From positions 2,066,982 to 2,130,981 of the forward strand of contig NC_045134.1 in assembly GCF_007655135.1 (NCBI RefSeq): 64,000 nt of DNA. The letters are read 5' to 3'. The position numbers and the translations under genes were made by a program. This DNA comes from Punica granatum. Taxonomy: Eukaryota > Streptophyta > Magnoliopsida > Myrtales > Lythraceae. Under the pieces are notes generated by a model. That model was not told the origin of the DNA and did no database searches. It saw only the letters and a program-made list of their open reading frames with translations. Positions 547 through 56,182 of this stretch are shown here, piece by piece. The stretch's first letter is position 1. Each line of letters begins with the position of its first letter.

Positions 547-1357
547 CCCTCCCAAATGGAAATTTATCGAGAAAAGAGACGATGGCAAACTCTTTAGGGA
601 ATTTGTTTGGTTGAACCAAGCTTCGGCCGGAAGAGACTTAATTGGCCTCCGTAAGAAGGAATGAGGAATGTGAATTTGTGGAGAGAAAAAACTTTGGTTT
701 GCACAAGGAGGAAAGGAGAGCCCTCGTTAATATATATAGCGCAGATGCATATGCATGCAGTTGTATGAAATTTATAGGGCAAACACAAATGGTTAGTGGA
801 AAAACAAAGGAAATTTACGTTGCATTACATTGCAGGGCATTGGATTGCAGGCACTCTCTCTACGCGTGGATTTCTCTCTGCATTAGTTGGTAAAATATGT
901 ACGTAGCATAGAACCGGCCGGTGAAATTAGTAGTTTTCAAAGGTCATTTAATCAAAATCACAAATAGATTTATTTAAATTAAGTTTATTTAAATAAATTT
1001 CCACCCAAAATATTTTTAGTATTCAAATTTCATTAATATATATAAATATATATGTAAATCTTCAATATTTAATGTATTATATCCAATCATTGGAAGTTTT
1101 ATTCAAGAAACTAATGTATCATACTTAAAACTAATTGAAAGTGTTAAATTTAATATTTCGTGCTTAACACAGCATAATGGTGTTTAACAAAAGCAATGTA
1201 ATATAATAATTAATAAGAAATATATAATATAATGCTCATATATTGTAATCGGGCTGTCGCAGCGAAGCGCAGCCTTTCGCCCAATATAGATACAATTGAA
1301 TAGTCTAGCAAATTTATGGAGTTGTAAGCCATACATACATATTTATATATATATATC
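1..1357. repeat. Segmental duplication unit 1, left part (upstream of viral insertion)
   Basis: Bases 1-950 align with 41,248-42,197 and 21,374-22,325, covering the DC1 gene and its promoter side. Bases about 1,130-1,357 align with 44,565-44,760. About 2.3 kb present between those points in unit 4 is replaced here by some 180 bases of AT-rich DNA (955-1,130). The unit breaks off in the TA-rich stretch at 1,331-1,356 and resumes at 19,041. No other gene is seen between 600 and 1,356. Confidence 0.8.
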
Positions 1358-2063
1358 AGATCCCGGTTCTGAATATTTGTTTTACTCTGTTTGAGGAGCC
1401 AGGAATAAGGTGGTGTTTGAATTCAACTGAACCTGTATCACTCAAAATTTTCTCATAGTATTCCCGGGTTTTTGAAATGTCCATGGGCCGGTAATACCAA
1501 TTTTCAGGAAACAATTTTGATGCTGCGAAGAAGGGATTTTCATGGTAAAAACCTTCTTCCATAATTAAAACAGTTTGAAATAGTGTTTTTGGAAACCATG
1601 GTGCTGTTTTTGAAGAGCTGGTTTCTTTATCGGAAAATGTTGCGAGACTTTTTTTTGCTCTTCTGGCGATTTGCCTAGAGCTCTCTCCCATGCTTGTCTC
1701 CAGCAGAGGAGGAGATATCTCAGATAGCACTTGTGCTAAATCTGGTTTATCTCTTAATACTGTAATCCATTGCTGAACTACTGCATCATTATCGAGATTA
1801 GGAGATGAACTCTGTTTTTGTTTCTCCTTTATGGGTTTAGGAATTTTACCTGGCAGGGTTTGCATGCAGTCCTGCTTATCGATCTCCTGTTGGAAAGTCT
1901 GTCGATAGGTTTTTATTTGGCTATCGACGGTGATCTGTCCAATGGAGGGACAGGTGGTAGCCACCTGTTTTGAGGATTTCTCCTCTTTTTTTATCGACTG
2001 GCTGGGAACCAGCTGTTTTGAGGCCGAGGCCTCTTTTTTGGAGGAACGAGTCCTCATGCTCAT
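1356..2063 (-). pseudogene. Block A ORF 2, unknown function, 3' truncated at host junction
   Basis: A 235-residue frame starts at ATG 2063, overlapping the TGA that ends the RNase H frame in an ATGA arrangement, which suggests coupled translation. The N-terminal 40 residues are rich in Lys and Ser. A compact region (residues about 150-235: PWFPKTLFQT, NPFFAASKLFPENWYYRP, KTREYYEKILSDTGS) looks folded. Similar C-terminal ORFs occur in plant endogenous pararetroviruses, but I know no function. The terminal stop (1356-1358) appears to be made by the junction with host TA-rich DNA, so the true C-terminus is missing. It differs from the coiled-coil ORF of blocks B/C. Confidence 0.55.
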
Positions 2064-3445
2064 GGTGGTACCTGCAGAAATTCTCTTGTCAGGAAATCAG
2101 GGAGACTGTTAGCCTCACCTTTTATGAATTCAATGTCAAAATCAAATAAACTCAAGATTGCTTGCCATCGAGCAAAAATCTGTTTTGATGCAATGTTTTG
2201 AACATCTTTTTGAAGAACTTCTTTTGCAGATTTGCAATCAATCCGAAGTAAAAACCTTTGGTTTAAAAGATCAAATTGAAATTTCGAAATGCAAAGGACT
2301 ATAGAAAGAATTTCTTTTTTAATGGTTGAATAATTCTTCTGGGTCGGGTTCTAATGTTTTAATGTGAACTGGACAACTTGTTCAGTTCCATTTTTTTATT
2401 GTTTCAGGATTCCTCCGTATCCTTCTTCAGAGGCGTCCGTTTCAACAATCTTTTTTGCAGATGGGTCTGCCAGGTGAAGACAAGGCAGGGTTTTGATCTG
2501 AAGCTTGATTTGCTTCACAATTTTGGTTTGTTCATCCGTCCATGGTGGAGGAGAATTCTTTAACCTATTATGGAGGGGTTTGCAGAGTCTACTTAGTCCT
2601 GAGAAAAAGTCTACAGCATAGTTGAGGCTTCCTAAGAACCTTTGTAGCTGCTTTTTATCATGGATGTTGTCAGGGAATTTATCAGCAAACTGGATGAACC
2701 TGTTGATGGGGATTATGGTGCCTCTGCTGATATTGTGCCCTAAAAATCGAATTTTTATTTGGAAGAGGCATACTTTAGTTGGAGACACAGTCAAGCCATT
2801 TATCGAAGTGATTCTCATAAAATGTTTCACATGTTTAAAATGAGAATCAATGGTTTTGGAAAATATGAGAACATCATCAATGTACACAATTATGAAATCG
2901 GAGTATGCATCGAAGATGTCATTCATGATTTTCTGAAATTCAGATGGGACATTTTTTAGCCCAAAAGGCATCACATTCCATTCGTACTGGCCAAAAGGAA
3001 CTGTGAATGCAGTTTTGTATTTGTCCTTTTCGGTAATTTGAATTTGCCAAAAACCTGACTTCATGTCGAATTTTGAAAATATTTTTGAATCATGAAGTTT
3101 TTGGAGCAAATCCTTTTTGTTAGGTATTGGGTACCTAATCCATCGTAAGGCTTGGTTCAAGGGCTTATAATTGATGACTAACCTGGGGACTCTTCTTTCT
3201 AGCTCAGCGTTTTTATTCACGTAGAAAGCTGAACAGCTCCAAGGAGACTTGCTAGGTCTAATCAATTTTTTGTTCAAGAGTTCCTGGATTTCTACCTTGT
3301 AATGTTTTTCCAACTCCTGATTCATCTGAATGGGCCTGGCTTTTGTTGGGATATTTTTCTCATCAAAATCCTTTTCATAAGGTAGGTCGATGACATGCTG
3401 CTTTATATCCCAGAAAGCGTTTGGGGTTTCTCCGCAAACTGACTC
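2060..3445 (-). pseudogene. Block A reverse transcriptase - RNase H (degenerate)
   Basis: This continues in frame from the movement-protein/protease ORF after a TAG at 3446-3448. The first part ends in a Pro/Lys/Arg segment typical of the protease-RT link. RT motifs follow: FSKFDMKSGFWQIQ, FTVPFGQYEWNVMPFGLKN and the catalytic box VYIDDVLIFS, then FLGHNIS. RNase H starts with VETDASEEGYGG (first catalytic Asp). Two further in-frame stops (TAA near 2,396 and TAG near 2,363) interrupt RNase H before its second half (LRIDCKSAKEVL, then a C-terminal Asp segment FLTREFL). The frame ends at TGA 2060-2062. RT of this type copies the terminally redundant viral RNA into DNA in the cytoplasm. It is inactive here because of three nonsense codons. 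Confidence 0.85.
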
Positions 3446-5641
3446 CTAAATCAGCCTGTTGAGATTATCGATTTTTTGTTTCAAATCTAGTTTTTGGAGC
3501 ATATTTTCAACATTATGGTGTGAGATCTCATCTTTTACCCAGCCAATTTGCCTTTCAGTTGCCTGTATTATGTCCAGATTCTTGGTTACAGGTTTTGTGA
3601 TGAAAGGAAAAAGGGTTTTGTTTCCTAAATACACCGTCTTTATGCCAGAGTTGGTGAAAAGAAAGGGTTTGATGAGCTGAATGAATGGGGTTCCTAGTAT
3701 GACTTCATTTTTAAAATCTTGGACAACTAGGAAACCAGTTTTGTAAGTTGAATCTTCATTTTTTACTTCTGCTTCTGCAATTTTGTATGAAATTTTCAAT
3801 TTGTTATTGCTTGCAGATCGTAAAGATTCATGGATTTTCTCACAGTATTTTAATGGGATTAATCCTTCCCTCACACAATTGGCGTCTGCACCTGTATCCA
3901 ACAGGGCAGTTGCTTCCAATTGGAAGTCGTGCACCTTAATGGTAGGTTTTATGAGGTATTTCTGATGGGTGAATTCCTGGCTTTTACACTCAGGTTTGGG
4001 TTCAGCATTATCCAAGGTCTGAACCAGCTTTTCATCATTTTTTAGAGTTTTCACTTCTTTTTGCAACTCATGGAGCTTTTGGCGAAGTTCCGACTCTGCT
4101 TGTCTTCTCTCCCTTTCCCGGTTTTCATGCTCTAAAGCGCGGGTGTTTTTGATCATCATGTTGAGTAACCTAAGGTTTTTGGTTTGCTCAGGTTCTTTGG
4201 GCTCAACATATTTTGGAGGAGGTTTTGAGGAAACTGTGGCTTTGTTAAAAGGCAGTTTCCAGGTTATGGTTTTTTCAGTGAATTTGATGGCCTTTTCTTC
4301 CATGTAGACTTGGTAAAACCAGTCCCAGAAAAGGATATTTTTCTCATTTTTCTCCATGAAATGGATCCACTGATTTTGTATTATGGTCTCTACGTATTTC
4401 TTTGTAAAGACTCCATGCAACCAATTCCTCTTGTTTTCATTTTCTTTGGAGCAGAAATCATTCCTAAGGATGTTTGATGCTAATGTGAAGGGTTTCTCAA
4501 TCACATAGATCTCAGGGTTAGGATTGATCCTGGTTGTATCGGTTATGGATGAAAATGTGGGTGAAGGGGGTGAAGACTCAGTTTCATCTGTGTTTGGGAC
4601 AGAATATACTAGCCTAGGAATATCGGTGGCGACACTACTTATTCCTCTAAGGTTGGCAGACCTAGGAGGGTTTTCAGTAGTTGTTTGAAAAGTGTTTGCC
4701 GATGGGGCAACACTGAATGATCTCCTTCTTAGCTCAGGGCTTCTAAAGGAAGAACTTATCGAAGGGGTTGAGGTTGACTGTATGTCGACTGATCTCCTAT
4801 GGCGAAAGCTTATGGAAACTCTCCCATCTTGGAACTGGCTCACTCGACTAAGTTCCTCATTTTGGATTTTTTCAGGTGCAACTGCGTCTTCTAAGACCCA
4901 TTCTTCAGGAAGAGTTACCTTATTCCACCTAATTGGTATGGGGACAACAGTGTTTGACCTGACAATGGCTGTTTGGAAAAGGAGGGTTTCTCCTTTGGGG
5001 CTATGGTTGAAGGCTTTGGTTGCAAACGCTGAGACCATCGTCTTGTAATGGACTCTGTACACAAGGGCTAAAGGGATAAAGCCTAAAGCAATCTTGTAAT
5101 TATGCGTCTTAATTTGCAATGTTAAGCCATGAGTTATGTTTTGGTCTTTGAGGGACATGGTAAAATTTGGGAAACAGTTGAAATGGACCGGTCCGTCGCA
5201 CAGACTAGTCTCGACTGTCCCAAGGATGGATTCATGGTAATTCAAAAGCCTAGCATCCCTAAGTACTAAGAGCACTGAGGTATCTAAGCCTTCTCTGGTT
5301 AGGGGTTTTATGCCCACTTGGACGAGCCCTATATGGATGAAATTATATTTATCATTATGTTTTTTTAATGACTCTTGGTTCAAGAGTTTTATGGTTTGTG
5401 AAGAGTTTTTTAGGGGAATATCCCGCTCCTCAGTGGTTATGGTGTAATTGGTTTTTGAAAATATTTGTTGGAATTTTGAGTTTTTATAAATCTGTTTTGA
5501 GGCGATTCTTGGGATTTCCCAATCGTCAATAGATCTATCAAAACATTCCAAATTGACTTCTTCTCTGTTGAGAATAGAATCGTTATCGAAATTATTTTCA
5601 GAAGAACATGTACTCGAAGAGCTTGCTTTAAACCAATCCAT
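3446..5641 (-). pseudogene. Block A movement protein - N-domain - coiled coil - aspartic protease ORF
   Basis: ATG at 5641 (MDWFKASSSS); a longer frame starting at TTG 5653 is not used because blocks B and C start at the matching point (MGLFK). It is 731 residues long with no internal stop. Residues about 60-290 look like a 30K-superfamily movement protein, which would widen plasmodesmata. Residues about 395-470 carry a domain with the core NILFWDWF that recurs near the N-terminus of the block B/C capsid polyprotein. A charged coiled coil follows (about 500-560). A retropepsin-type protease has the catalytic LLDTGAD motif and VILGTPFI. No capsid domain or CCHC knuckle lies between, unlike in one-component relatives. 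A TAG at 3446-3448 splits it from reverse transcriptase. This is the least damaged ORF of block A. Confidence 0.8.
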
Positions 5642-5795
5642 ATTTAAAAACAATAAATCTTCCAGTCTTTCAAATATTTTTCAAGATATTCAAACAGCAT
5701 ATCAGTTCCTTATCTTTTCGGTATTCCAATCTAATCCTAGACGAAGTCTCTAGAGCTCTATAGAACCATTAGCCTAGTGGTTTGAAGATGTTAAG
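5642..5795 (-). repeat. Block A leader, inverted copy of the block B leader
   Basis: The 150-odd bases in front of the block A start codon are, on the minus strand, almost identical to 6,754-6,906 in front of the block B start codon on the plus strand. By eye there are about five differences. The match starts at GACTTAACATCTTC and runs up to the ATG. Block C has a clearly more diverged version at 18,159-18,320. Beyond 5,795 the block A leader is truncated: no primer-binding site in A's orientation is found. Confidence 0.85.
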
Positions 5796-5824
5796 TCCTC
5801 GTTACGATAGATCTTGGGTGTAAA

Positions 5825-5837
5825 TGGTATCAGAGCC
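5825..5837 (+). promoter_or_regulatory. tRNA-iMet primer-binding site, first of two at the A-B junction
   Basis: TGGTATCAGAGCC matches the 3' end complement of initiator tRNA-Met, used by caulimovirids to prime minus-strand DNA. It is preceded by CGATAGATCTTGGGT, the same bases that end block B (12,480-12,493), so this is a short tail-plus-PBS fragment of a B-type genome. It lies 234 bases before the PBS that opens block B. Confidence 0.7.
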
Positions 5838-6051
5838 TATAAAGAGCCCCGATCCTCTATTTCATGACTCGACCACGAAGTGAGGCTCTCCGTAGGGGAC
5901 GTCTGGTTTTGGGTGCAGCCTAGAAATCAAAGCGGCCCATTGATCCAGATGGCAAACTAATAGGTACCCTTGGATGTGGTTACCAGCCGGCCACTCTGAA
6001 AATCGGGTGCGGTTCCGTGTTGGGGGCAAGGTCCGAGACCCGGGTTGCGGG
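5838..6051. other. Unassigned segment between two primer-binding sites
   Basis: About 214 bases, GC-richer than the surroundings, that I cannot match to leaders of B or C or to the host flanks. It is bracketed by two copies of GTGTAAATGGTATCAGAGCC (5,818-5,837 and 6,052-6,071). It may be leader DNA from a third viral variant, LTR-element DNA with the same primer, or repair filler. No ORF of note. Confidence 0.5.
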
Positions 6052-6058
6052 GTGTAAA

Positions 6059-6074
6059 TGGTATCAGAGCCAAG
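6059..6074 (+). promoter_or_regulatory. tRNA-iMet primer-binding site opening block B
   Basis: TGGTATCAGAGCCAAG is followed by GTGGGGATAGGATGTATATT, which matches the block C leader read from 19,030 downward, apart from six bases missing in B. The site marks the start of minus-strand synthesis and here also the physical left end of block B. Confidence 0.85.
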
Positions 6075-6906
6075 TGGGGATAGGATGTATATTCCGTTTT
6101 GATTTTCAGATCCAGTAGATCTCGTAGGTCATATCATATAGGACCGCCTTCATGGCTGGTAGAAACTCATATAGTTTTCTCTTCAGGTGTGGCAAGGTAC
6201 ATATCTATACAATGAACTGAAGCTGGTAAACATAGTAATTAGGCAGCCATAGCGTAGGTCTCTTTAGAAATCTAGATCCGATATCACAATGAACTGATGC
6301 TAGCATAAGAAGTAATGTTAGGAGGCTCTAATGTCCATCCAGTCGCTCTAATGGACCCTACACATTCACCGTTCATAGGAACCCGGGGGGAGTCCTAAGG
6401 TGTTCCCGTTTTGTAAGTCCCGACGGTTAGGGCAGTTTTCAGGGAGAAAATTGGACAATGGCCCGGTAGTGTTATGAACACCGTCTAAGTAGATGGAGGT
6501 TATCGACTGGAGTAGAGTTATCCTCGTGCATTATCGTTCGTCTAGGTACAACAGTTGGGGGATAGGAGATAGATCAATAGAGAATCTTACTGAGTTTGTC
6601 TGCCTACTATTATTGTTAAATCCAGGTACAGCAGTTGGGTAAGGTATGTGCTAGATCTTGAAGGGAAACACAGTGTGAGGCTTCTTCCGTTCGTCCATGT
6701 ATGTCTTAGATCTTGATCTTGAGAGAAGCTGGGTAGGAGAATTAGAAACGACTTAACATCTTCAAACCACTAGGCTAATGGTTCTATAGAGCTCTAGAGA
6801 CTTCGTCTAGGATTAGATTGGAATACCGAAAAGGTAAGGAACTGATATGCTGTTTGAATATCTTGATAAATATTTGAGAGACTGGAAGGTTTATTGTTTT
6901 TGAAAT
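6075..6906 (+). other. Block B 5' leader
   Basis: An untranslated leader of about 830 bases between the primer-binding site and the capsid start codon, collinear with 18,159-19,014 (minus strand) of block C. Long leaders with short ORFs are usual for caulimovirids, where they fold and hold the packaging signal. The last 150 bases are the part shared with block A. Confidence 0.75.
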
Positions 6907-9844
6907 ATGGGTTTGTTCAAAATGACTCCCTCTCATGCATGTGGCTCTTATAGCCAAAAAACCGATAAGTTTGCTTCTCTCCATAAAAAACTCGATAATC
7001 TAAAACCTAAATTAAATGCCCAGAAAACATCCTCTGAATCGGGGAGATCCACTCTGATTAGGATAATTAGGGGATTTAAGATAGATTTCGATAACCTTAG
7101 GAAGGATTTCCTAGGAACCCATAATGATGACAAGAGAAGGTGGCTCTTCGAGTCCTTCTCTGAAGAACTAATCAAGTCTCACATTCAGGATAGTTGGACG
7201 GCATTCATGCTAAAAAACTCCACAAATATCCTGTTTTGGGATTGGTTCAAAAACCATTTTGTACCTGAAAGAATGGTATGTGTAACTTAGAAAACCATAA
7301 AATGGGATCTTGCTAACGCAAACCCGGTTGAGTCAACACATCCGCCCTTAGGTACCCTCAAAATAACCCATCAAAAAGAGGAGATCAAAGCTTCTCCTTT
7401 CAAAAAGAAAGTGGATGATTCACTAGCCCCCAAAGATATTAAAAACATCTTTGAACAAAATAATTTCACAAACCAGTGTCTTTCCACCATAGGTTCCCAA
7501 TTGGATAGGATAGAACAAGAAGTCACCAAGCCTGTAACCAACCAAGTAGGGACCTCTAGTCGTCTGAACCTACCAAAACCTGTACTCATGGAATCTCTCA
7601 GAAAACCTCCTTTTAAACCCCATAAGATCCCAGTCTCTAGGAAGAAAGAGTTTAATCAGGAGCTAGAAAGAAAAATAAAAAATATAAATCTTCGGGAAGA
7701 ATCCACATCCAAGAGTCTGCCAAAAATGATCGTCCTAGACACTCCTTTGTCAGGAATAGAGCCTGGAACACCATTAAAAGTAGCCAAACATAAGACACAA
7801 GAGTCTGAAGGCTCAAATGTCAACGCCATTGATAAATCTGGAAATTTTGACAAAATAGTATGGCAGGAACCCCAAAAACCCTACTACACTACCATAAGTG
7901 CACCAGACCTAGTGCTAGAAGAAAAACCTAGCATTGTCCAAAATAGGTATAGTGCCAATGCCATCTATGAGTGGAACATAGACGGGCAGTCCGAATATAA
8001 CATTCTGAGCGTCCTACAGCAAATGACGATGGTGTCAAATGCCTACAAGACCCAGACCCAATTGTCTGACCCAGTCATAGCACACTTACTAATAGCTGGG
8101 TTCACTAGTCAACTGAAGGGATGGTAGGATAACTACCTATCACCCTTTCAACAAAATGAAATCCTGACCAGCGTCAAGACTGATGAAATAGGTGAGATCA
8201 TATGGGATTCAAACAATGAGGATATCCCTGATGCCGTAGCAACCCTAGTCTTTGTCATCTCCCAACATTTCGTAGGAGACCCTTTCTCACCTCAAAGACA
8301 AAAACCTAGAGTTGCTCTCAAATCTAAAATGCAAAAGACTGTCTGATTTCAGACAGTACAAAGATACCTTCCTCACTAGGGTCATGTCTAGGGAGGATTG
8401 TAACCAGCCGTTTTGGAAAGAAAAATTCTTAGCAGGTTTGCCAACCTTGTTAGGAGAACAAGTCCGAAACGAAATCAAATCCATAAATCATGGCCAGATA
8501 CCTTACAAAGAACTGAGTTATGGAGAGCTCATTAGCTTCATCCATAAAGAAGGTATCCGAATGTGTACTCAGCACAAACTTCAAAAACAATTGAAGAAAG
8601 AAAAGGCCCAGACTAGGAAAGAGCTTGGCAATTTCTGCCAGCAATTCGATCCCTCTTTTCAAGTCGACAAAAAGGTCGAAAAAACCAAAACCTGCAGTGG
8701 GGACTGCAACAGAAAACATAAGCCCAAACATTTCCATAAAAAATCTAGGTTTCCCTCAAAAGCACAAACCACTGACAAGAGTGAGAAAAAATTCAGCTCC
8801 TCTTACAAGTGTTTCAAGTGCGGGAAAACTGGCCATACCCAGAGGTATTGTTAACTCAACAAAAAGATTCATCAACTGGAAATTGATGAAGAAACCAAAA
8901 ATCAGGTCTGCAACCTGTTGATAGAGTCTGATGACTCTGAGGCAGGATCCTCAACAGAGGATGAAGATGGCCTGCAAATGGATGAACTTGATTGGTCATC
9001 CGATGAAAAATCGATAAATGTCTTAACAAAAGATCAGGAATTCCTGCTAGAAATAGAAGACCAAATCCATAACCCCTTGTTAAGAAAACAATATCTCGAA
9101 AAGTTGAAACAGGGCACTCTCGAAGGAGAGATCAAAATCCCTAATTACAACCTCTCTGAAATCCTTAAAAGGCACGACAAGAAACGAGCTCATAAAACCT
9201 CGTTTGATGCTCAAAAGGAAGTCGAAATCCTCAGGAGTGAAATTGATTGTCTCAAGTTTGAGACATAACAACATTCCATGATAATTGGTCGATTGGAAGA
9301 GCTCATTATTGAGGCATCAAAACCCTCAGCCTGCTCTGACAAGGTCCTCATGAACCAGGATAAAAACCCATATGAAAGTCTGGCCCTGGACCAAACAAAA
9401 AAGGACCAGCATGAAACTCTAACCATGATAGGGAAACCTTCTCCTAACAGATGGTTGATCAAAATCACCCTAGTCATAAACCATAATCTGCTTATTGATG
9501 CAACTGCTCTGTTCGACACAGGCGCAGATGAAAACTGCATCAATGAACAAATCATTCCTCCCAGATTCTATGAAAAAACAACTGAATCACTTTCTTCGGT
9601 TAGTGGTACCAAACTTGACATCAAATATAAGTTGAGTGAGGTAGAAGTTGAACAGAATAGAGTCCGGTACAAAACGTCATTCTTGCTAGTAAAAAACCTT
9701 AACCATAAGGTTATACTAGGCACCCCATTCATCCAGCTTTTAAAACCGTTCCTTGTCACCTCATCTGGCATAGAAACGCATAAGCTTGGAAACAAAATAA
9801 AATTCCATTTCATCTCTGATAAATGTATTTACAAAACAGACTAA
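6907..9844 (+). pseudogene. Block B capsid - CCHC knuckle - aspartic protease polyprotein (degenerate)
   Basis: ATG at 6907 (MGLFKMTPSH). Order: N-domain with NILFWDWF (residues about 60-125), linker, capsid core (7,860-8,500; EWNIDGQSEYNI, YKDTFLTRVMSREDCNQPFW), basic Lys-rich tract, zinc knuckle CFKCGKTGHTQRYC (8,812-8,851), acidic Ser/Asp/Glu stretch (LQMDELDWSS) and protease with the LFDTGAD motif near 9,516-9,536 and VILGTPFIQLLKPF. There is no reverse transcriptase downstream. Breaks relative to block C are TAG at 7,288-7,290, TAG at 8,125-8,127, an extra base near 8,284, TAA at 8,852-8,854 directly after the knuckle, and TAA at 9,266-9,268. It would have supplied virion protein and its own processing enzyme. 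Confidence 0.82.
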
Positions 9845-10212
9845 TTCATTCTATGCAGGAAATGGCCATGGAATCCGCTCAAGAATGGTTACACCAATGG
9901 CTGTTTGAACTATTGCATGATGACAGTCTTGAAAAAATACAAAATGATATACAGGACGGGGAAACAGACTCTATGGATCGTATCTGTACTTCATATATCC
10001 ATAACATCTGTGCCCTCATCGATCATCCTGTATCCCATGTTCTTTGTGCCTATTTTGACAGGCATTGCAAGAGTCTTCCTCGTTGCAATAAAAAATCCTG
10101 TTTTTTGCATATTAATTCCACTTTAAAAACCCGGGAAGATTATGAGCTAGTTATTGGCCATTATCTCTACCAGGAACCAGTGGTGGTTGATTTAAACATA
10201 AACTTGCCATAA
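9823..10212 (+). CDS. Block B small Cys/His-containing ORF, unknown function
   Basis: A 129-residue intact frame overlaps the protease frame by 22 bases and ends just before the coiled-coil ORF, so it sits in a compact viral gene order. Block C has an intact counterpart of the same length (14,834-15,223). Conserved features are an acidic, Trp-containing N-half (AQEWLHQWLFELL), a DHPVSHVLCAYF segment and a Cys cluster (CKSLPRCNKKSC) that could bind a metal. No known family recognised. Survival as an open frame in two copies suggests a real viral gene rather than chance. Confidence 0.6.
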   Translation: MYLQNRLIHSMQEMAMESAQEWLHQWLFELLHDDSLEKIQNDIQDGETDSMDRICTSYIHNICALIDHPVSHVLCAYFDRHCKSLPRCNKKSCFLHINSTLKTREDYELVIGHYLYQEPVVVDLNINLP

Positions 10213-10221
10213 CCCTTGTTC

Positions 10222-11811
10222 ATGTCTACATACAGGAACATGGAACTCCCTTGGTTTGACCAGGCTTGCGAAGGCTCCTCTTCTAGGAGCAAAACACATA
10301 AACATCAGAATCTGCCTCTACCTCCAAAGAAGCGGTTCTGCATAAAGTCTAGCCTCACGGCTTGGCAGCCTGACCCCAGGCAACAACTCATCTTGGATGA
10401 CTTATGGGCTTCCATAAAGAATCCTCAAAAGGGTGAGGAATCCATAGACGCATTGGTACTCCATATGGAGGAACAAAGCAACAGCAAAGCATCCTTGCAG
10501 CAGGAACATTGTCTGAAAATCGATTCGCTGCAACAAGAGCTATCCCTCCAAAAAGCTCAGACTCAAGCTTTCCTCCAGAATAGGTTAGTTGAGTTCGATA
10601 AATTCAAAGAGCACTTTGCAGAAATGCAAAGAGAAAACCATGCTCTAAAAAAGAAATTAAAAAAGAGTGAAAAAATGAGAGGTGTTCTAGAAAAAGAAAA
10701 TGAAGGCTCCAAAAAAGAAATCGAGAGCCTTTGTGCGGAAAGAATAGAAGTCTTAGAGTTTTCTGAGTCCTGCCTCAGAGAAAAAGACGCTCTTGAAAAA
10801 GAAAATAAAAAATTAAAGCAGGAACTGGAGTCATCTTTAGCTCCATCGATAAGTCGGTTACAGGTTCCCCCCATCGGAAGTGTGACTGAAAAATTGTTTT
10901 CCAAAAAACCCATTGAGGTAACTCTCAGTGGCATTTTTCCCCAAGCAGGAGAAATCATGTTTCTTTCAAAACTTCCTGATGACATTGTCTTAAAAATTTC
11001 TGAGATAAGCCTTCAGGATTTTACTACTAATATGATTTCCTTTTTCAAAAGACTCCTTCAGTTTTGTGCTTGCACACAAAAAGGAATTGACTGATGGTTC
11101 TGGAATTGGGAAAGAAAAAACCATTTTCAAAATGATTTTCCACAACCTTGCGACCAACACAATGAGGACGATGCTTTTGAAAGGGCTGATATCTTACTCA
11201 TGGATGGTTGCAGGCATATCCTGGAATTCCCGATCCCTAGGATAAGTTTTTATGTTTTCCCTTTAAAAGATAAATTTTATAATCACCATTTCGATTTTTG
11301 TGATCTTCTGAAATACGGAGTCCTCAAATCCATAATTTTAAAACCAGAGGATGAACATCGACCAGAGTATCAATCCCTTTTTGGGGATAATGCTTGGGAC
11401 CTGATTAAGAAGTCCTTACGACGATCGTCCAGCCTCTTCATCAGCATTGAATCCTCTCCTCCAAAGTGGATTTCCCCCATAAAAGTCCAACCAGCTATCC
11501 ATTACGTTTTCATCTCTCCGGTAAGTTCAAGAAGCATTCTCACTCCGGAGGCAAAGTTTTGGGCAGCAAATGGACAAATCACTACACAGATTAGCAAATG
11601 GCGAGCTTGGGTTCAGGTCAACGAATGGCACTGGCGTAAATACCCATAGCATATTCTCCAGTTCTCAGGTAATTGCCAGAGGGTTTTCCTACATATCTCT
11701 CTCATCGACAAGCCAATCCAACCAGGGTTCAACACCCGTCATGATTTCTGGCTTGATAAGATCGAAGAAGAGTTTTTATTGGATTCCCAGATTGCCCATC
11801 GACAATACTAA
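10222..11811 (+). pseudogene. Block B coiled-coil ORF with conserved C-terminal domain (two stops)
   Basis: ATG at 10222, ten bases after the previous stop. The first third is basic (KTHKHQNLPLPPKKRFC). The middle (residues about 85-215) is a long heptad coiled coil rich in Glu, Lys, Leu and Gln. A TGA at 11,092-11,094 and a TAG at 11,647-11,649 break a frame that is continuous with block C at those points. The C-terminal domain (FYVFPLKDKFYNHHFDFCDL, WRAWVQVNEWHWRKYP) is well conserved between B and C. Coiled-coil proteins of caulimovirids can be virion-associated or aphid-transmission factors; that role here is only a guess. Confidence 0.65.
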
Positions 11812-11870
11812 TTGCTAGCCTCTATATCCGAAAGCGTCCGCCCACTGTTTCAAGGCACGTGGATCATTAC

Positions 11871-12137
11871 CGGACAAAAAACCTTTCGACATTAAAGGCT
11901 ATGCCCCACATTATCAGCGCAATCTCCGGAAGCGTCCCACTACTACTCACAGTGATACCATAACGGACAAAAAACCTTTCGGCGAGCGTGCCCGACATAA
12001 AACAGCAATCTGTCACTATTTGCTACAAAAAAGGTCACTGTAGCTACAGTTTTTCCACTGAGCTCAACAGTTCCCCGCATGTGAGTGTACAGTTCAAAGT
12101 TGCACAGCGACAAGGCATCCACCATTGCCTATAAGAG
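11871..12137 (+). promoter_or_regulatory. Block B viral promoter: repeated 18-mer plus TATA box
   Basis: The motif CGGACAAAAAACCTTTCG occurs twice in direct orientation (11,871-11,888 and 11,964-11,981), followed by a TATA box CTATAAGAG at 12,129-12,137. The same arrangement is kept in block C. Position near the 3' end of the unit, ahead of a poly(A) signal and the leader, is that of the caulimovirid full-length-RNA promoter. A pyrimidine-rich stretch (12,180-12,205) follows, where transcription may start. Confidence 0.6.
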
Positions 12138-12389
12138 GGGTCTCCTTCCATCATCGGAGGACACCACTCATCCACCACAACACTCTCTTTCTCTCTTATT
12201 CTTCTTCTCATATGTAAACATCCGGTTCCCAGAACCCGGATCCTCCAACCCCCATTCTGTGTATAAGTTCCAGTGTAAGCATGGGTTGAGTTCTTTCAAA
12301 CTCTTCCCCTTTTTTTTTCTTTTTCATGTCTTCTTCTGTTTTCTTGAACATCATGTACTCCCTTCAGCCCATCATGAGCTAAGTTTCTG

Positions 12390-12395
12390 AATAAA
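12390..12395 (+). terminator. Block B poly(A) signal AATAAA
   Basis: AATAAA about 255 bases downstream of the TATA box, kept in block C (12,649-12,654). In pararetroviruses the signal lies shortly after the promoter, giving a terminally redundant RNA. Confidence 0.55.
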
Positions 12396-12479
12396 TCTTC
12401 CATGTTGATCTTATATTTATGTTGATATTCTCAGCATATCAGATCCTTATCCTTCCAGTATTCCATGGTTATCCCTTAC

Positions 12480-12517
12480 GATAGATCTTGGGTATATATA
12501 TATACCCAAGATCTATC
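12480..12517. repeat. 38-bp perfect palindrome at the B-C tail-to-tail junction
   Basis: Centred between 12,498 and 12,499. The left arm reads GATAGATCTTGGGTATATA and the right arm is its exact reverse complement. The left arm is the end of block B, which elsewhere (5,808-5,823) runs straight into a primer-binding site. The right arm follows the block C primer-binding site and GGTGGGGATAG. It marks where two inverted genomes were joined. Confidence 0.85.
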
Positions 12518-12530
12518 CCCACCTAGTCTT

Positions 12531-12543
12531 GGCTTTGATACCA
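12531..12543 (-). promoter_or_regulatory. Second primer-binding site of block C (one mismatch)
   Basis: On the minus strand TGGTATCAAAGCC, then AAGACTAGGTGGGGATAG, as at the start of block C (19,030). Block C therefore contains one whole genome length plus about 30 bases of terminal redundancy. Confidence 0.75.
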
Positions 12544-12648
12544 TTTTAACCCAGAGACCTATCCGTAGGGGACAACCATGGAATACAAGAAGAACATGGA
12601 TCTGATATGCATAGACTGTCAAGATAAATATGAGATCGACATGGAAGA

Positions 12649-12654
12649 TTTATT
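12649..12654 (-). terminator. Block C poly(A) signal AATAAA
   Basis: Counterpart of 12,390-12,395, about 265 bases downstream of the block C TATA box on the minus strand. Confidence 0.5.
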
Positions 12655-12916
12655 CAAACACTTAGCCCATGATGGGCTGAAGGGAGTACATGAGTTTGAA
12701 ACAAACAAAAGAAGAAAGCATTAAAATAAAAAGGAAAGAGTCTGTAAGGACTCAATCCATGCTTACACTGGAACTTACACACAGAAAGGGGGTTGGAGGA
12801 TCCGGGTTATGGGAGCCGGATGTTTACATATGGGAAGAGATAAGAGAGGAAGAGAGGAAGAGTGAATTATGTGTTGCGGATGTGTGTCTCCCCCCTCGAT
12901 GCTGGAGGAAGAGCAC

Positions 12917-13182
12917 TCTTATAGACAGTGGTGGATGCCTTGTCGCTGTGCAGCTTTACACTGTGCACTCACATGCGGGGTACTGTCGAGCTCAGTGGAA
13001 GAACTGTAGCTACAGTGCCTTTTTTGTCGAAAAAGGTGACAGGAGGCTGCTTTATGTCGGGCACGCTCGCCGAAAGGTTTTTTGTCCGTTATGGGACCAC
13101 TGTGAGTAGTGGTGGGACACTTCCGGAGATTGCGCTGATTATGTCGGGGCATAGCCTTTTGAGCCGAAAGGTTTTTTGTCTG
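12917..13182 (-). promoter_or_regulatory. Block C viral promoter: repeated 18-mer plus TATA box
   Basis: CTATAAGAG lies on the minus strand at 12,925-12,917. Upstream are two copies of the 18-mer CGGACAAAAAACCTTTCG (13,088-13,071 exact; 13,182-13,165 with one change). Spacing of the copies is 94 bases here and 93 in block B. Confidence 0.6.
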
Positions 13183-13234
13183 GTAATGATCCACGTGTCT
13201 GAAGCAGTGGGCGGACGCTCTCGGTTGCTGGGGG

Positions 13235-14823
13235 CTAGATGCCGTATTGGCGGTGATCACGCTGAGCTTCTAGCAAGAACTCCTCTTCGAACTTGTCAAT
13301 CAGGAAAGCATGTCTTGTGCTGAACCCTGGTTGAGCTGGTAAGTCGAGGAGAGAGATATGCAGGAAAACTCTTTGGCAGTTACCTGAGAACTGGAGAACA
13401 TGCTCTGGGTATTTACGCCAGTGCCATTCGTTTACCTGAACCCAGGCTCGCCAATCGCTGATCTGGTTTGTTATCGTTCCTTCTGCTGGCCAGAACTTTA
13501 CCTCCGGAGTGAGAATGCTCCTCGAACTTACCGGAGAGATAAAAATGTAATGGATAGCAGGTTGGACTTTTATGGGGGAGATCCATTCCGGTGGAGAGGA
13601 TTCTATGCTGATGAAGAGGCTGGACGATCTTCGCAGGGATCTTTTGATTAATCCCCAAGCATTTTCTCCGAAAAGAGACTGATACTCCGGTCGATGCTCA
13701 TCCTCTGGTCTCAGAATTATGGATTTGAGAACTCCATATTTCAAGAGATCACAAAAATCAAAATGGTGATTATAAAATTTATCTTTTAAGGGGAAAACAT
13801 AAAAACTTATCCTGGGGATTGAGATTTCCAGGATATGCCTGCAACCATTCATGAATAGGATGTCAGTTCTTTCAAAATCATCATCTTCCTCGTGTTGGTC
13901 ACAGGGTTTTGGAAAATCATTTTGAAAATGGTTTTTTCTTTCCCAATTCCAAAACCATCCGTCAATTCCTCTTTGTGAGCATGCACAGAAATGAAGGAGT
14001 TTTTTGAAAAAGGAAATGGTGGTTGTAGTAAAATCCTGGAGACTTGTCTCAGAAATTTTTAAGACGATATCTTCAGGAAGTTTTGAAAGGAACAGGATTT
14101 CTCCTGCTCGGGGGAAGACGCCACTGAGAGTTACTTCAAGGGGTTTTTCCCAAAACAGTTTTTAAGTCTGGCTTCTGATGGGGAGAATCACAGACTGATT
14201 TATCGATGGAGTTGATATGGACTCCAAATCCTGCTTTAATTTTTTATTTTCATTATCAAGAGCGTCTTTTTCTCTGAGGCAGGACTCAGAAAACTCTAAG
14301 ACTTTTATTCTTTCCGCACAGAGGCTTTCTATTTCTTTTTTGAAGCCTTCATTTTCTTTTTCAAGAATACCTCTCCTTTTTTCGCTCTTTTTCAATTTTT
14401 CATTAGAGCATGATTTTCTCTTTGCATTTCTGCAAAGTGCTCTGTGAAATTATCGAACTCTACTAACCTGTCTTGGAGGAAAGCTTGAGTCTGGGATTTT
14501 TGGAGGGATAGCTCTTGCTGCAGCAAATCGATTTTCAGGCAAAGTTCCTGCTGCAAGGACTCTTTGCTGTTGCTTTGTTCCTCCATGTGGAGAACCAATG
14601 CATTTATGGATTCCTCACCCTTTTGAGGATGCTTTACGGAGGACCATAAATCATCCGAGATGAGTTGTTGCCTGTGGTCAGGCCGCCAAGCCGTGAGGCC
14701 GGACTTTATGCAGAATCGCTTTTTGGGGGGCAGATCCTGGTGTTTATGGGTTTTGTTCCTGGAGGAGGAACTTTTATCGACCTGGTCAAACCAGGGGTGA
14801 TCCATGTTCCTGTATACAGACAT
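13235..14823 (-). pseudogene. Block C coiled-coil ORF with conserved C-terminal domain (two breaks)
   Basis: ATG at 14823. It aligns along its length with 10,222-11,811. A one-base loss near 14,395 shifts the frame inside the coiled coil, and GAA has become TAA at 14,163-14,161. After that the frame is open to the natural stop at 13,235, including the two places where block B has stops. The C-terminal domain (residues about 330-530 of the aligned frame) holds FYVFPLKDKFYNHHFDFCDL and WRAWVQVNEWHWRKYP. Because B and C are broken at different places, both descend from an intact gene and decayed independently. Confidence 0.65.
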
Positions 14824-14833
14824 GAAACAATGG

Positions 14834-15223
14834 TTATGGCAGATTAATGTTTAAATGGACTCTTACAGGAGCCTGTAAAGCCAGGTGGCCTATGAATAGC
14901 TCATAGTCCTCCCGGGTTTTTAAAGTGGAGTTGATGTGCTGAAAACAAGGTTTTGTATTGCAACGAGGGATTTGCTTGCAATGCTTGTTAAAATAGGCAC
15001 ACAACACATGGGATACAGGATGATCGATGAGGGCACAGATTTTGTGGATGTATGAAGTGAATATACGATCCATAGAGTCTGTTTCCCCGTCCTGTATATC
15101 CTTTTGGATTTTCTCAAGACTTTCGTCTTGCCACAGTTCTAACAGCCAATGGTGTAACCACTCTTGAGCAGACTCCACAGCCATTTCCTGCGCAAAATAC
15201 ATCAGTCTATCTTGTAAATGCAT
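14834..15223 (-). CDS. Block C small Cys/His-containing ORF, unknown function
   Basis: An intact 129-residue frame from ATG 15223, overlapping the protease frame by 22 bases as in block B. It shares AQEWLHHWLLEL, DHPVSHVLCAYF and a Cys cluster (CKQIPRCNTKPC) with 9,823-10,212. No family recognised; a zinc-binding accessory protein is possible. Confidence 0.6.
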   Translation of the reverse strand: MHLQDRLMYFAQEMAVESAQEWLHHWLLELWQDESLEKIQKDIQDGETDSMDRIFTSYIHKICALIDHPVSHVLCAYFNKHCKQIPRCNTKPCFQHINSTLKTREDYELFIGHLALQAPVRVHLNINLP

Positions 15224-18158
15224 TTGTCAGAGACAAAACAGAATTTTATTTTGTTTCCAAGCCTGTGCGTCTCAATGCCAGATGTTGTGACAAGAAACGG
15301 TTTTAAAAGCTGGATGAATGGGGTTCCTAGTATGACCTCATGATTAAGGTTTTTGACTAGGAGGAATGATGTTTTGTACCGGACTCTATTTTGTTCAACT
15401 TCTACTTCGCTCAACTTGTGCTGGATGTCGAGCTTAGTACCACTGACCGAAGAAAGTGATTCAATTGTTTTTTCATAGAATCTAGCAGGAATGAGTTGTT
15501 CACGAATGCAGTTTTCGTCTGCACCTGTGTCAAACAGAGCAGTTGCATCAATAAACAAATTATGGGTTATGACAAGCTTGATTTTGATCAACCACCTATT
15601 AGGGGAAGGTTCTACTAACATGGTTAAGGCTTTCTGCTGGTCATTTTTTTGTTGGTCCAGGGCCAGAGTGTCCTCTGGGTTTTTGTCCTGGTTCATGAGG
15701 ACTTGTCTAGAGTTCCCTGCCTCTGCAACGAACTCTTCGAGACGTCCAATTATGGTGGAGTGCTGCTGTTGTTCAAATCTGAGACAAGCAAGCTCACTCC
15801 TGAGATTATCGATTTCTTTTTGGGCATCAAACGAGATTATGTGAGCTCGTTTTTTGCCATGTCTCTTCAGAATTTCTGATAAGTTATAATTAGGGGTTTT
15901 TGTCTCGGCTTCGAGAGTGCCCTGATTTAACTTCTCAAGGTATTGTGTTCTTAACAAAGGGTTTTGGATTTCTCCTGCTATTTCAAGCAGGAATTCTTGG
16001 TCCTTAGTTAAGACATTTATCGATTTTGACTCTGACGACTGTTCATCAGTCGACCAGTCAAGTTCATCCATCTGCAGACTCTCCTCGCTGGCAGTCGAGA
16101 AGTCCGTTTCAGAGTCGGATAACTCTGTCAACAGATTGCAGATTTGATCTTTTATGTCATCATCAATCGCCAGTTGATGAATCTTTTTATTGAGGTAACA
16201 ATACCTCTGGGTATGGCCAGTTTTCCCGCACCTGAAACACTTAAAGGGGGAGATGGACTTTCCCTTATCCTTTTCAGTGACATGTGGTTTTGGGGGAATC
16301 CTAGATTTTTATGGAAATGTTTGGGCTTATGTTTTCTGCTGCAGTCCCCACTGCAGGTTATGGGTTTATCGGCCTTTTTGTCAACCTGGAAAGAGGGATC
16401 GAATTGTTGGCAGAAACTGCCAAGCTCTTTCTTGGTCTGGGCCTTTTCTTTTTTCAATTGTTTTTGGAGTCTGTGCTGAGTACACATTCGGATACCTTCC
16501 TTATGGATGAAGCTGATGAGTTCTCCATAACTCAGTTCTTTGTAAGGTATCTGGCCATGATTTATTGTTTTGATTTCGTTTCGGACTTGTTCTCCTAACA
16601 AGGTTGGCAGATCTGCTAAGAATTTTTCTTTCCAAAACGGCTGGTTGCAATCCTCCCTAGACATGACCCTAGTGAGGAAGGTGTCTTTGTACTGTCTGAA
16701 ATCAGACAGCCTTTTGCATTTTAGGTTTGACAGCAGCTCTAGGTTTTTGTCTTTGAGGTGAGAGGGGTCTCCTACAAAGTGTTGGGAGATGGCAAAGACT
16801 AGAGTTGCTACGGCGTCAGGGATGTCTTCGTTGTTAGCATCCCAGATGATCTCACCAGATTCATCTGTCTTGACGCTGGTCAGGATTTCATTTTGTTGGA
16901 AGGGAGAAAGGTAGTTGTCCCACCATCCCTTCAATTGGCCTGTGAACCCTGCTATGAGCATGTGTGCTATGGCTGGGTCCGACAATCGGGTCTGGGTCTT
17001 GTAAGCATTTGACACCATCGTCATTTGCTGTAAGACACTGAGTATGTTATATTCAGACTGCCCATCTATGTTCCACTCATAAATGGCATTGGCACTATAC
17101 CTATTCTGGACAATGTTGGGTTTTTCTTCCAAAACTAGGTCTGGTGCACTTATGGTAGTGTAGTAAGGTTTCTGGGGTTCCTTCCACACTAATGCTTCTA
17201 AATCTCCAGAGTTATGTATGGCGTTGACGACATTCGAGCCCTGAGACTCTTGTGTCTTGATTTTTGTTGCTCTTAATGGGGTTCCTGGCTCTTTTTCAGA
17301 AAGAGGAGTTTCCGGGATAACCATTTTTTGCAAGCTTATGGATGGGGAATTTTCATGGAGATTTATGGATTTTAATCTTCTCTCTATTTCCTGTCTAAAC
17401 TCCTGTTTCCTAGAGATAGGAATTTCATGTGGTTTAAAGGGAGGTTTTTTGAGAGACTCTATGGCTACAGGTTTCAATTGGTTCGACTGACTAGAGGTCC
17501 CTACCTGGTTGACAACAGGTCTGGTGACTTCTTGTTCTATCCTATCCAATTGGGAACCTATGGTATGGAGACACTGGTTTGTGAAATTATTTTGTTCAAA
17601 GATGTTTTTTATGTCTTTGGGTTCCAGTGAATTGTCCACTTTTACTTTGAAGGGAGAGGCCTTGACCTCTGCTTTTTGATGGATTATTTGGATGGTTCCT
17701 AAAGGTGGGTGTGTGGACTCAACCGGGTCTGCATTCGCAAGATCCCACTTTATGGTTTTCTGAGTCACGCATACCATTCTTTTAGGTGCGAAATGATTTT
17801 CAAACCAATCCCAAAATAGGATATTGTTGGAGTTTTTTAGCACGAATGCTGTCCATTCTACCCTGATATGAGATTTGGTATATTCTTCGGAGAATGTCTC
17901 GTGGAGCCATCTCCTTTTATGGTCATTATGGGGTCCTAGGAAATCACTCCTAAGCTTATCGTAATCTATCTCAAATTTCTCGACTATTGTGTCTACCCTA
18001 GGGACACCTGACACAGACAGTGCTATTTGAGATCTACATTCAGCTAATTTTTGGTTTATTCTATCCTGAAAAGAATCTTTTTTGTTGATAGAATAATTAT
18101 CGTTTATGTGATGAGAACCTAAGCATGCATGTGGAGGAAAATTTTTAAAAAGACCCAT
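15202..18158 (-). pseudogene. Block C capsid - CCHC knuckle - aspartic protease polyprotein (one frameshift)
   Basis: ATG at 18158 (MGLFKNFPPH), matching block B; the longer frame to 18197 is not used. The capsid part is open for about 620 residues: N-domain with NILFWDWF, linker, capsid core (EWNIDGQSEYNI; GWWDNYLSPF) and a Lys-rich basic tail. A five-T run (16,306-16,310) has one base fewer than the matching run in block B and shifts the frame just before the knuckle CFRCGKTGHTQRYC. Beyond it the frame is open through the acidic stretch and protease (LFDTGAD, VILGTPFIQLLKPF) to the stop at 15,202. This single lesion makes C the best preserved capsid copy. No reverse transcriptase follows. 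Confidence 0.82.
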
Positions 18159-19030
18159 ATTTTTTAAAAGCAATAAACCTTCCAGTCTATCAGACATTTA
18201 TCAAGACTTTCTATACTTTTGCATATCAGTTCCCTATCCTTAAGGTATTCCATACCTATCCTAGACGAAAGCTCTACAGATCTAATAGAACCATTAGCCT
18301 AGAAGGTAGTTCAAAGATGCTATACCGTATCAGATACTCCTACCCAGCTTCTCTCAAGATCAAGATCGGATCTAAGACGTACCTTATTGGCAGAAATCCC
18401 ACCTCACACAGTGTTTCCCTGCAGCATACCTTAAACATACCTTGCCCAACTGCTGTACATGGTTTTAACAATAATAGTAGACAGACAAACTCAGCATGAC
18501 TCTCTATAGATCTATCTCCTATCCCAACTGCTGTACCTAGACGAACGATAATGCAAAGGATAACTCTACTCCAGTCGATAACCTCCATCTATTTTGACGG
18601 TGCTCGTAACACTACCGGGATTCTTTCCAATTTTTCCTCTGAAGACTGCCCTAACCGTCGGGACTTACAAAACGAGGACACCTTAGGACTTCCCCCCGGG
18701 TTACTACAAACGGTGAATGTGTAGGGTCCATTAGAGCGACTGGATGGACATTAGAGCCTATTGCATTACTTCTTATGCTAGCATCAGTTCATTGTGATGT
18801 TGGATCTAGACTTCTACAGAGTCCTGCGCTATGGCTGCCTAATTACTATGTTTACCAGCTTCAGTTCATTGTATAGGATATGCAAGAATACACTATTGGG
18901 AGAACGCTACATGAGTTTCTACCAGCCATGAAGGCGGTCCTAGATGATATGACCTACGAGATCTACATGGATCTAAGTAACTTGAACGGAATATACATCC
19001 TATCCCCACCTAGTCTTGGCTCTGATACCA
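18159..19030 (-). other. Block C 5' leader with primer-binding site at 19,030-19,015
   Basis: The minus strand starts with TGGTATCAGAGCCAAG (19,030-19,015), then runs about 860 bases to the capsid ATG, collinear with the block B leader but more diverged. The right edge of the viral island is within 10 bases of this site. Confidence 0.8.
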
Positions 19031-19869
19031 TTTCTTCTTATAACCGCATACCAAATTATATCTCAGAAAATCAATACTAGGTATAATTTGCTTTGTGTTG
19101 ACTGTTCATCTAAATTAATAATGAACCTGCAAGTATGCAACGGCAATTTCTCTGAACTGCTTCATGCATGTATTATGTATATATTTAATTTATCTTATAT
19201 TTTACTAAAAATTAGGTTGGAAAAATGAGTCCTCGGCGCAATTCCCCAACATTTTCGGTTGAATAATATCTTTAGTTCTTTAATTGTTGCTTATATATGA
19301 TAAATTCTTCTTCGTAAATGTGGAAACATTTTTCAAGTATTTCTTCCCCTTTCCATTGATTTTACGTCTCCAAGACGTTGTTTTGACTCTACAAAACCGC
19401 GTGAGGTTGGAGTTTTAAGAGCCACAAAAACAAATCCCACGAAGCTGTTACCTTGTAAATGTTGCACCTAATACTTTCTCCATAGGTCCTCTTGACTTAC
19501 GAGAAAATTTACATGTGTAATGTGATATGCATAGATATAATTAAATGACACCTATATAAATGACGAGTATATATTGCAGTGACAAATGCTCTCAATCTTA
19601 TTTTTATTTGCGAACACTATTGCTGGTCAGTCAGAATCAGGTGCTGGAATGGGCCTCTGCCCATGGGCCTCATGGAACTCAAATCAAATGATCCAAGCCT
19701 CAAAGACCAAACAGTTCTCTGGCCCGAAATTAAGCCCAAACGTGTAATTAATTTCGCACAGAGGGCGGCCGAGCGGTTCTATTTTGCCAAATTGCACGAG
19801 AGGAGGACTGTTGATTTTATTCGAAATCCATCCCTGATCTTTCCATTATCTTGCAAATGAGACCATAAA

Positions 19870-44275: not shown

Positions 44276-44744
44276 GGCAGATCCTACTTTTGGTAGCTGC
44301 CCTTTTCCTTTTTTATTTATTTTATTTTGTTTTCCCTTTTGCCTTTTCCTTTGGGTCAACTTGCATACAATATCGCCTAATACTTAGATAATCAATTGTT
44401 ATCTGCATGTCGTATCCTGGACAAGGCTGTTGCCTTATAAGTGTCGGCGTTGACTTGACTTACGGGGAAACTAACATAGTATTTATAATTAATATGGCTA
44501 TGCATATACATATGTATATATATACACACACTAAATATACTAAAATTGTTTTTTGTTTCAAAGAAATTGAATATTTCATGCTTAATATAACATGATGGTG
44601 TTTAACAAAAGTAATGTAATATAATAATTAATAAGAAATATATAATATAATGCTCATATATTGTAATCGGGTTGCCACAGTGAAGCGCGGCCTTCCCCCA
44701 GTATAGATAGAACTAAATGATCCAGCAAATTTATGGCAGTGTAA

Positions 44745-44747
<3 letters not shown>

Positions 44748-44784
<37 letters not shown>
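44748..44784. repeat. (AT)n microsatellite: paralogous empty site of the viral insertion
   Basis: The sequence before it (TTATGGCAGTGTAAGCCATA) matches 1,311-1,332 and the sequence after it (AAACCGCGTACCAAATTATA) matches 19,041-19,060. In unit 1 the 17.7-kb viral island lies between these flanks. Confidence 0.9.
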
Positions 44785-44791
<7 letters not shown>

Positions 44792-56109: not shown

Positions 56110-56182
56110 GCCCGTCTAGCTCAGTCGGTAGAGCGCAAGGCTCTTAACCTTGTGGTCGTGGGTTCGAGCCCCACGGTGGGCG
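56110..56182 (+). tRNA. tRNA-Lys (anticodon CTT)
   Basis: 73 bases fold into a full cloverleaf: acceptor GCCCGTC/GGTGGGC with a terminal G, D-arm A-box TAGCTCAGTCGGTAGAGC, anticodon loop CTCTTAA with CTT at 56,143-56,145, and T-arm B-box GGTTCGAGCC. No intron. A run of T directly after position 56,183 is a pol III terminator. It reads AAG codons for lysine. Confidence 0.97.

Follow-up and report, generated by a model that had tools for sequence, protein, structure and literature searches.

Does a pararetroviral fossil whose genes lie on separate units represent a divided genome, or the remains of a genome that was once whole? The question is raised by a block of virus-derived DNA in pomegranate (Punica granatum), which occupies positions 1357-19041 of the 64,000-nucleotide stretch analysed here (the window; NC_045134.1, positions 2,066,982 to 2,130,981 of the forward strand, or C8:2066982-2130981 in our labels, where C1, C4, C8 and so on denote contigs). 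The block contains three units in the order A (minus strand), B (plus strand) and C (minus strand); B and C are inverted copies of one component, 83% identical and each ~6.5 kb long. We consider it very likely that A and B are the two genome components of a single florendovirus-like pararetrovirus with a divided genome.

The gene contents of the units are complementary. Block A encodes a movement protein (MP), an aspartic protease (AP) and a reverse transcriptase (RT) with RNase H; no capsid match in it is better than E 3.6, and no CCHC zinc knuckle occurs in any of its six frames. Blocks B and C encode a capsid protein (CP), a knuckle, a protease and two open reading frames (ORFs) of their own, ORF2B and ORF3B, with no MP or RT found (a Citrus ‘RT’ query does hit B and C, but through its protease end). 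Jointly, A and B hold all domains of a florendovirus ORF1: MP, CP with zinc finger, AP, RT and RH1. Pfam scans and a direct check for the CCHC motif thus bear out the original prediction, made from the letters alone, as to what each block has and lacks. Its statement that B and C span complete units between primer-binding sites (PBSs) stands for C, which runs from a tRNA-Met PBS at 19030 to an 11/12 match at 12543 (~6.49 kb); B has a PBS at 6059, and its 3′ end reaches a (TA)n palindrome at ~12,494. At up to one mismatch, the window contains four tRNA-Met PBS matches, against 0.20 expected by chance. Block A is truncated at both ends (1357, inside ORF2, and 5797), and because of the truncation at 5797 its leader is reduced to ~170 nucleotides (nt) and it lacks a PBS.

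The same split was observed throughout the 320-Mb genome searched, within the lists of scored matches. All 145 of 145 capsid candidates were scored, giving 119 matches, while for the other queries only the best candidates were scored: 116 of 3456 for RT (at least 121 matches), 150 of 174 for MP (at least 150), 89 of 198 for ORF2A, the gene downstream of RNase H (at least 92), and 128 of 162 for ORF3B (at least 130). Genome counts are therefore lower bounds. Taking matches of at least 100 bits as the capsid family (n = 93), none of the 93 had an MP within 3.5 kb upstream or an RT within 4 kb downstream in the best-scored MP and RT lists. There were 104 RT pieces of at least 70% identity (~91 copies); for 80 of these an MP was found upstream at no more than 3.5 kb (modal distance ~2.07 kb), and a capsid lay between MP and RT in none of the 80 pairs. 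Downstream genes track the split: ORF2A matches (n = 92, from the best 89 of 198 candidates) follow RT in 72 cases, capsid in one and neither in 19, and ORF3B copies (n = 104, from the best 128 of 162) follow capsid in 73 cases, RT in one and neither in 30. When 30 B loci were fetched, 27 matched the leader query directly before ORF1 (three of these 27 only in part). The MP core was found in none of the 30 over the 1.5 kb examined upstream; two showed there only the 38 residues common to the ORF1 starts of A and B.

The 26 capsid matches below 100 bits behave differently from the family, nine having such a neighbour (seven MP, four RT, two both). The two with both, C1:43584610 and C4:14431461, have RTs 57–65% identical to that of window A; C1:32013753 has RT only (56%), and five others have MP only. 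At C4:49001 an A-type RT lies 3.1 kb away with the leader of that A unit in between, and the match is for this reason read as a truncated B beside an A. One locus, L033 (C1:43581600-43590000), holds a decayed relative of one-component type, with MP-CP-ZF-AP-RT-RH-ORF2 in order and an RT 57% identical to that of window A; further MP pieces lie beside it on the other strand. Since L033, and also Citrus gene models, show A-type and B-type domains joined, the method is able to detect a one-component layout. For the pomegranate virus itself, the arrangement named in advance as damaging to a divided genome, namely MP, capsid, protease and RT in one unit from which A and B/C had arisen by deletion, was searched for in the genome and, within the scored lists, not found (0/93 and 0/80).

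Other MP families are present at C4:9.74-9.87 Mb, C7:15755331-15776785 (spacing 6.99 kb) and C5:22.23-22.24 Mb, many with frames of ~310–370 amino acids (aa); no listed capsid or RT match of this virus lies near them, and they may be other endogenous caulimovirids.

The two components are linked by their leader and 3′ intergenic regions, in which A and B are 95–96% identical when strains match and 79–88% identical across strains. In its intergenic region L032, a component A unit within a tandem A array, matches C at 95.9% and B at 84.5% identity; for the last 225 nt of its leader the values are 96% and 79%. Within the window, the predicted near-identity of leaders holds for A and B (95.3% over 172 nt) but not for A and C (78.6% over 159 nt). 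Among the best-scored candidates (40 of 165 for C-type, 40 of 182 for B-type), each leader type was seen before both components. C-type leaders (at least 94% identity, n = 40) lead into A in 15 cases, B in 22 and neither in three, and B-type leaders (n = 41) into A in 17, B in 20 and neither in four; for B-type leaders of at least 90% (n = 19) the figures are eight, ten and one. Leader type agrees in 22 of 23 A–B pairs lying no more than 15 kb apart, against a shuffled mean of 11.5 (0 of 2000 shuffles reached 22). Bipartite begomoviruses likewise have two circles, linked by a common region that hardly differs between them within a strain; they are unrelated single-stranded DNA viruses, and the likeness is one of working only.

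Could B be a satellite that took over A's intergenic region and lived on A as a parasite, A using the capsid of another, unsampled virus? Such a history would suit the absence of MP and RT from B, the dissimilarity of its private genes to those of A, and the confinement of high A/B identity to non-coding sequence. However, the two components have about equal copy numbers (~91 A and 93 B), their pairs are mostly strain-matched, no capsid was found inside A units of this family, and the proteases of A and B cluster, with moderate support (92/91), against other florendovirus-like proteases. We regard a satellite origin as improbable.

The genes private to B bear on whether the components could instead be fragments of one genome. 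ORF3B is open over 530–538 aa in several other genome copies, and ORF2B over ~130 aa. Between the B and C copies, the ratio of nonsynonymous to synonymous substitution rates (dN/dS) is 0.17 for ORF2B and 0.19 and 0.08 for the N and C parts of ORF3B, as compared with wrong-frame values of 1.23 and 1.37 (ORF2B) and 1.08 and 2.00 (ORF3B C part). Mid, capsid, protease and linker pieces gave 0.13–0.36, MP 0.06 and ORF2A 0.26, so that the nine gene pieces of A and B span 0.06–0.36. The low ratios of ORF2B and ORF3B are those expected of genes maintained by purifying selection while the virus was replicating. Neither has a Pfam relative above the cut-off; against solved structures one search returned nothing up to E 1 and the other a single chance match at 0.24. 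Database relatives of ORF3B number seven among 523 candidates, all from Punica granatum. Sequence comparison, which leaves room for remote homology, detected no similarity of ORF2B or ORF3B pieces to ORF2A or to L033 (best E for ORF3B pieces against ORF2A, 2.5 and 8.8). ORF2A itself, a frame of 479 aa in L032, matches ORF2 of L033 in tblastn (E 2.6e-16 over two stretches, 2e-13 for the better one). Whole ORF2A had no protein-database match at E 0.001 among 5000 candidates; the window piece is 27–36% identical to parts of some Citrus gene models, and the RT of window A is 44–58% identical to Citrus pieces of 53–159 aa.

A and B might, then, have arisen by deletion from a one-component florendovirus of which complete copies were lost or left unassembled. 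Their domain contents are complementary, L033 and Citrus provide one-component relatives, ORF1 of A and ORF1 of B have related starts (~38 residues), and one unit, L031, is chimaeric. Yet the coding domains that A and B have in common are only 58% (protease) and 50–53% (DUF7588) identical in nucleotides. A difference of 42–50% in these domains beside 4–5% in strain-matched leaders largely contradicts deletion, and recent deletion is disfavoured since leader and intergenic identity stands at 95–96% while AP and DUF7588 stand at 50–58%. Furthermore, no full unit of this virus was found in the scored lists (0/93, 0/80), and the two genes of B, under purifying selection, resemble nothing detected in A or L033. 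We therefore reject this origin, on the spacing tests and the contrast between AP and leader, and hold it to be quite improbable. The proposal that complementary gene content reflects a divided genome gains support from the 0/93 and 0/80 counts, the strain-matched leaders and the coding divergence.

Unit spacing was analysed from all steps below 9 kb among the 119 capsid matches and 104 RT pieces. Twelve of 26 A–A steps measure 5.9–6.9 kb (13, below 0.7 kb, are pieces of one copy, and one is 8.6 kb). Six of 11 B–B steps measure 5.9–6.5 kb; of the remaining five, four separate pieces of one copy and the last is 8.5 kb. From A to a following B, eight of 18 steps are 5.4–5.7 kb and the others 1.6–5.1 and 7.4–8.2 kb; from B to A, nine of 13 are 7.1–7.8 kb and the others 3.1–6.1 kb. 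In one tandem A array the steps are 6584 and 6585 bases, giving an A unit of 6.58 kb. The 108 loci divide into 29 with A only, 39 with B only and 40 compound A/B loci, and on the eight large contigs an A is found no more than 9 kb away for 42 of 89 B copies (500 uniform random placements gave 0.35 on average and at most 3). A single ~13-kb circle carrying both halves, each with its own PBS, would match an A-B-A-B array of 13.06-kb period at C6:4.78-4.80 Mb, but the homotypic A–A and B–B arrays with steps of one unit length, unless formed after integration, and the A-only and B-only loci lead us to reject it as extremely unlikely. The matching arrays C6:13.81-13.84 Mb/C55 and C1:29.93-29.96 Mb/C73 are possibly one locus assembled twice.

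Several observations weigh against two components of one virus. Recombinants with capsid and RNase H do occur: L031 (C8:15038759-15047549, positions 2105-8049) fuses a B 5′ half, from leader to protease linker, to an A 3′ half with the RT end, RNase H and ORF2A, a few bases being common at the join. On whether any single copy contains both capsid and RT, no full one-component unit of this virus was found in the scored lists, and this one B/A chimaera was seen. Whether every host with A-type copies also has B-type copies was checked in this one host, which holds both. Besides the ORF3B copy that follows RT, another has an ORF2A on its own strand at most 1.8 kb away. L031 and these two irregular ORF3B arrangements are rare exceptions, and recombination or junctions seem to account for them. 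The 100-bit capsid cut was chosen after the data had been seen, the next match below it (99.1 bits) being L033 itself, and weak MP or RT remnants may have been missed with only the best candidates scored. The B-type leader class is loosely defined, with just 86–89% identity to the query for 22 of the 41 members; the 23 leader pairs stem from ~13 loci and hence are not independent, and the one discordant pair is window A versus C. The AP tree uniting A and B has long branches that were flagged by the tree program. Some small contigs may duplicate chromosome loci, slightly inflating copy counts, and the evidence is drawn from one host genome and from integrated DNA copies.

How would such a virus have worked? 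Component A (6.58 kb) would supply MP, protease, RT-RNase H and ORF2, and component B (6.49 kb, as measured in block C) the capsid and zinc knuckle, a protease of its own and the two private genes, each component starting at a tRNA-Met PBS and sharing leader and 3′ intergenic region with the other. tRNA-Met would prime the pregenomic RNAs of both, and A's RT would copy them; the capsid of B would pack both components and the MP of A would move the infection, while the private B genes probably serve packaging, transmission or expression. End joining may insert concatemers of A and B into plant DNA, in this block at a TA repeat. We also incline, with less assurance, to a fully divided pararetrovirus in which one circle served movement and replication and the other held the capsid gene and a pair of newly evolved genes, kept so long that the proteases diverged to about half identity while the common region stayed near-identical within each strain; the private B genes would have arisen after the split, for instance for sorting or transmission of two particles.

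The layout of the block is given in the table below. Its right edge, previously placed at 18158, is corrected to 19041: the host flanks left of 1357 and right of 19041, when joined, match an uninterrupted copy of a host repeat elsewhere in the window, the join falling within a TA repeat. For this reason A, B and C seem to have entered as one compound insertion, with nested later insertions a further possibility. Insertion at a TA repeat was examined, and seen, at this one locus.

Features of the window (positions in the window; strand; remarks)
Feature	Position	Strand	Remarks
Component A, truncated copy: leader piece, MP-DUF7588-AP-RT-RH, 5′ part of ORF2A	1357..5797	-	in-frame stop and frame change
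ORF2A, cut at insertion edge	1359..2096	-	85% identical to L032 ORF2A
RNase H	2063..2350	-	Pfam: RT_RNaseH 4.8e-10
RT frame and RNase H start	2399..3445	-	Pfam: RVT_1 8.8e-33, RT_RNaseH_2 6.9e-10
744-aa frame: MP (PF01107), DUF7588, retropepsin	3449..5680	-	Pfam: MP 2.2e-23, DUF7588 1.4e-10, RVP 1.2e-06
A leader piece	5627..5797	-	95.3% identical to B leader
Spacer: tRNA-Met PBS match at start, PBS of B at end	5825..6058	+	
Component B, first copy, about unit length	6056..12494	+	several broken frames
tRNA-Met PBS of B	6059..6070	+	
B ORF1 in pieces: DUF7588, DUF7746, coat domain, CCHC, AP	6904..9841	+	
ORF2B, first copy	9823..10209	+	129 aa
ORF3B, first copy	10213..11808	+	coiled coil, interrupted
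3′ intergenic region, common to A and B	11809..12494	+	
B/C junction, tail-to-tail	12480..12545	.	(TA)n palindrome
Component B, second copy (block C), PBS to PBS	12513..19033	-	
3′ intergenic region of C	12513..13238	-	95.9% identical to L032 component A
ORF3B, second copy, frame pieces	13238..14850	-	
ORF2B, second copy	14837..15226	-	
C ORF1, continued in other frame: CCHC, AP	15205..16308	-	Pfam: RVP 1.5e-09, zf-CCHC 0.022 (below cut-off; motif plain by eye)
C ORF1, 681-aa open frame: DUF7588, DUF7746, coat domain	16155..18197	-	Pfam: 3.1e-11, 1.1e-33, 2e-18
Leader of C	18143..19033	-	last 225 nt 96%, whole 87% identical to L032 A leader
Host repeat, uninterrupted copy (empty site for the block)	44561..45150	.	

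Positions 5837-6050, 214 nt between two tRNA-Met PBS matches, have no second copy in the window or the compared loci. A promoter scan, with a program built for bacteria and applied here to a plant host, gave nothing above shuffles. Three copies of a host repeat, 94–97% identical where compared and with a Cys/His-rich reading frame, lie at 1-952, 21376-22324 and 41247-42196, and a tRNA-Lys (ctt) gene at 56110-56183.

We found no literature on pomegranate or Punica pararetroviruses or caulimovirids that, by title or abstract start, treats this virus. Split florendoviruses as such are known: as the original prediction stated, bipartite organisation has been proposed, in 2014, for VvinBV, VvinDV, OsatBV and SbicV of Vitis, Oryza and Sorghum (Geering et al. 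2014, PMC4241990), and a 2023 review adds sugar beet (PMC10377300). The pomegranate virus resembles the viruses of the 2014 paper in an A without capsid, a B with capsid and protease but without RT, compound A/B loci, TA repeats, a tRNA-Met start, component size (5.5–6.9 kb there) and A/B intergenic identity above 90% (95.9% here for L032 A versus C). In the published description, however, component B encodes MP, CP and AP with a C-terminal extension homologous to ORF2, its MP matching that of A at >87% nt (PMC4241990), whereas in pomegranate B neither MP nor an ORF2 homologue was detected, two private ORFs are present, and nucleotide identity to A over the common coding domains is only 50–58%. 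The prediction that a B with its own protease and two extra ORFs is not a standard layout agrees with this description. In the accessible portions of the literature on bipartite caulimovirids (including PMC9719215, PMC5766536 and PMC13308828), a component B without MP was not met with, and for that reason this division of genes looks new, as far as visible there.

One-component florendoviruses (LjapAV type; also L033 and Citrus) have the same domains, but all in one unit. Their ORF2, after RNase H, is given in print as 45–58 kDa; the 479-aa ORF2A is homologous to ORF2 of L033. Wendovirus has four ORFs in one 7.7-kb genome, with two proteases of different Pfam families in neighbouring ORFs (de Tomas and Vicient 2022, PMC9794742). 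It is like the pomegranate virus in having two aspartic protease domains per virus and a 3′ ORF of unknown function; here, unlike there, the proteases are on separate components, both score as RVP above the cut-off and cluster in a tree, and identity with Wendovirus is rejected on layout. Divided genomes of reverse-transcribing viruses have so far been reconstructed fossils of a few plants. To these the pomegranate case adds a one-component control, downstream genes that track the split, largely strain-matched leaders and a coding divergence far exceeding that of the leaders. Whereas divided florendovirus genomes have been suggested to be possibly unsuccessful attempts (PMC4241990), the divided state, if our reading is true, can last and gain genes of its own.

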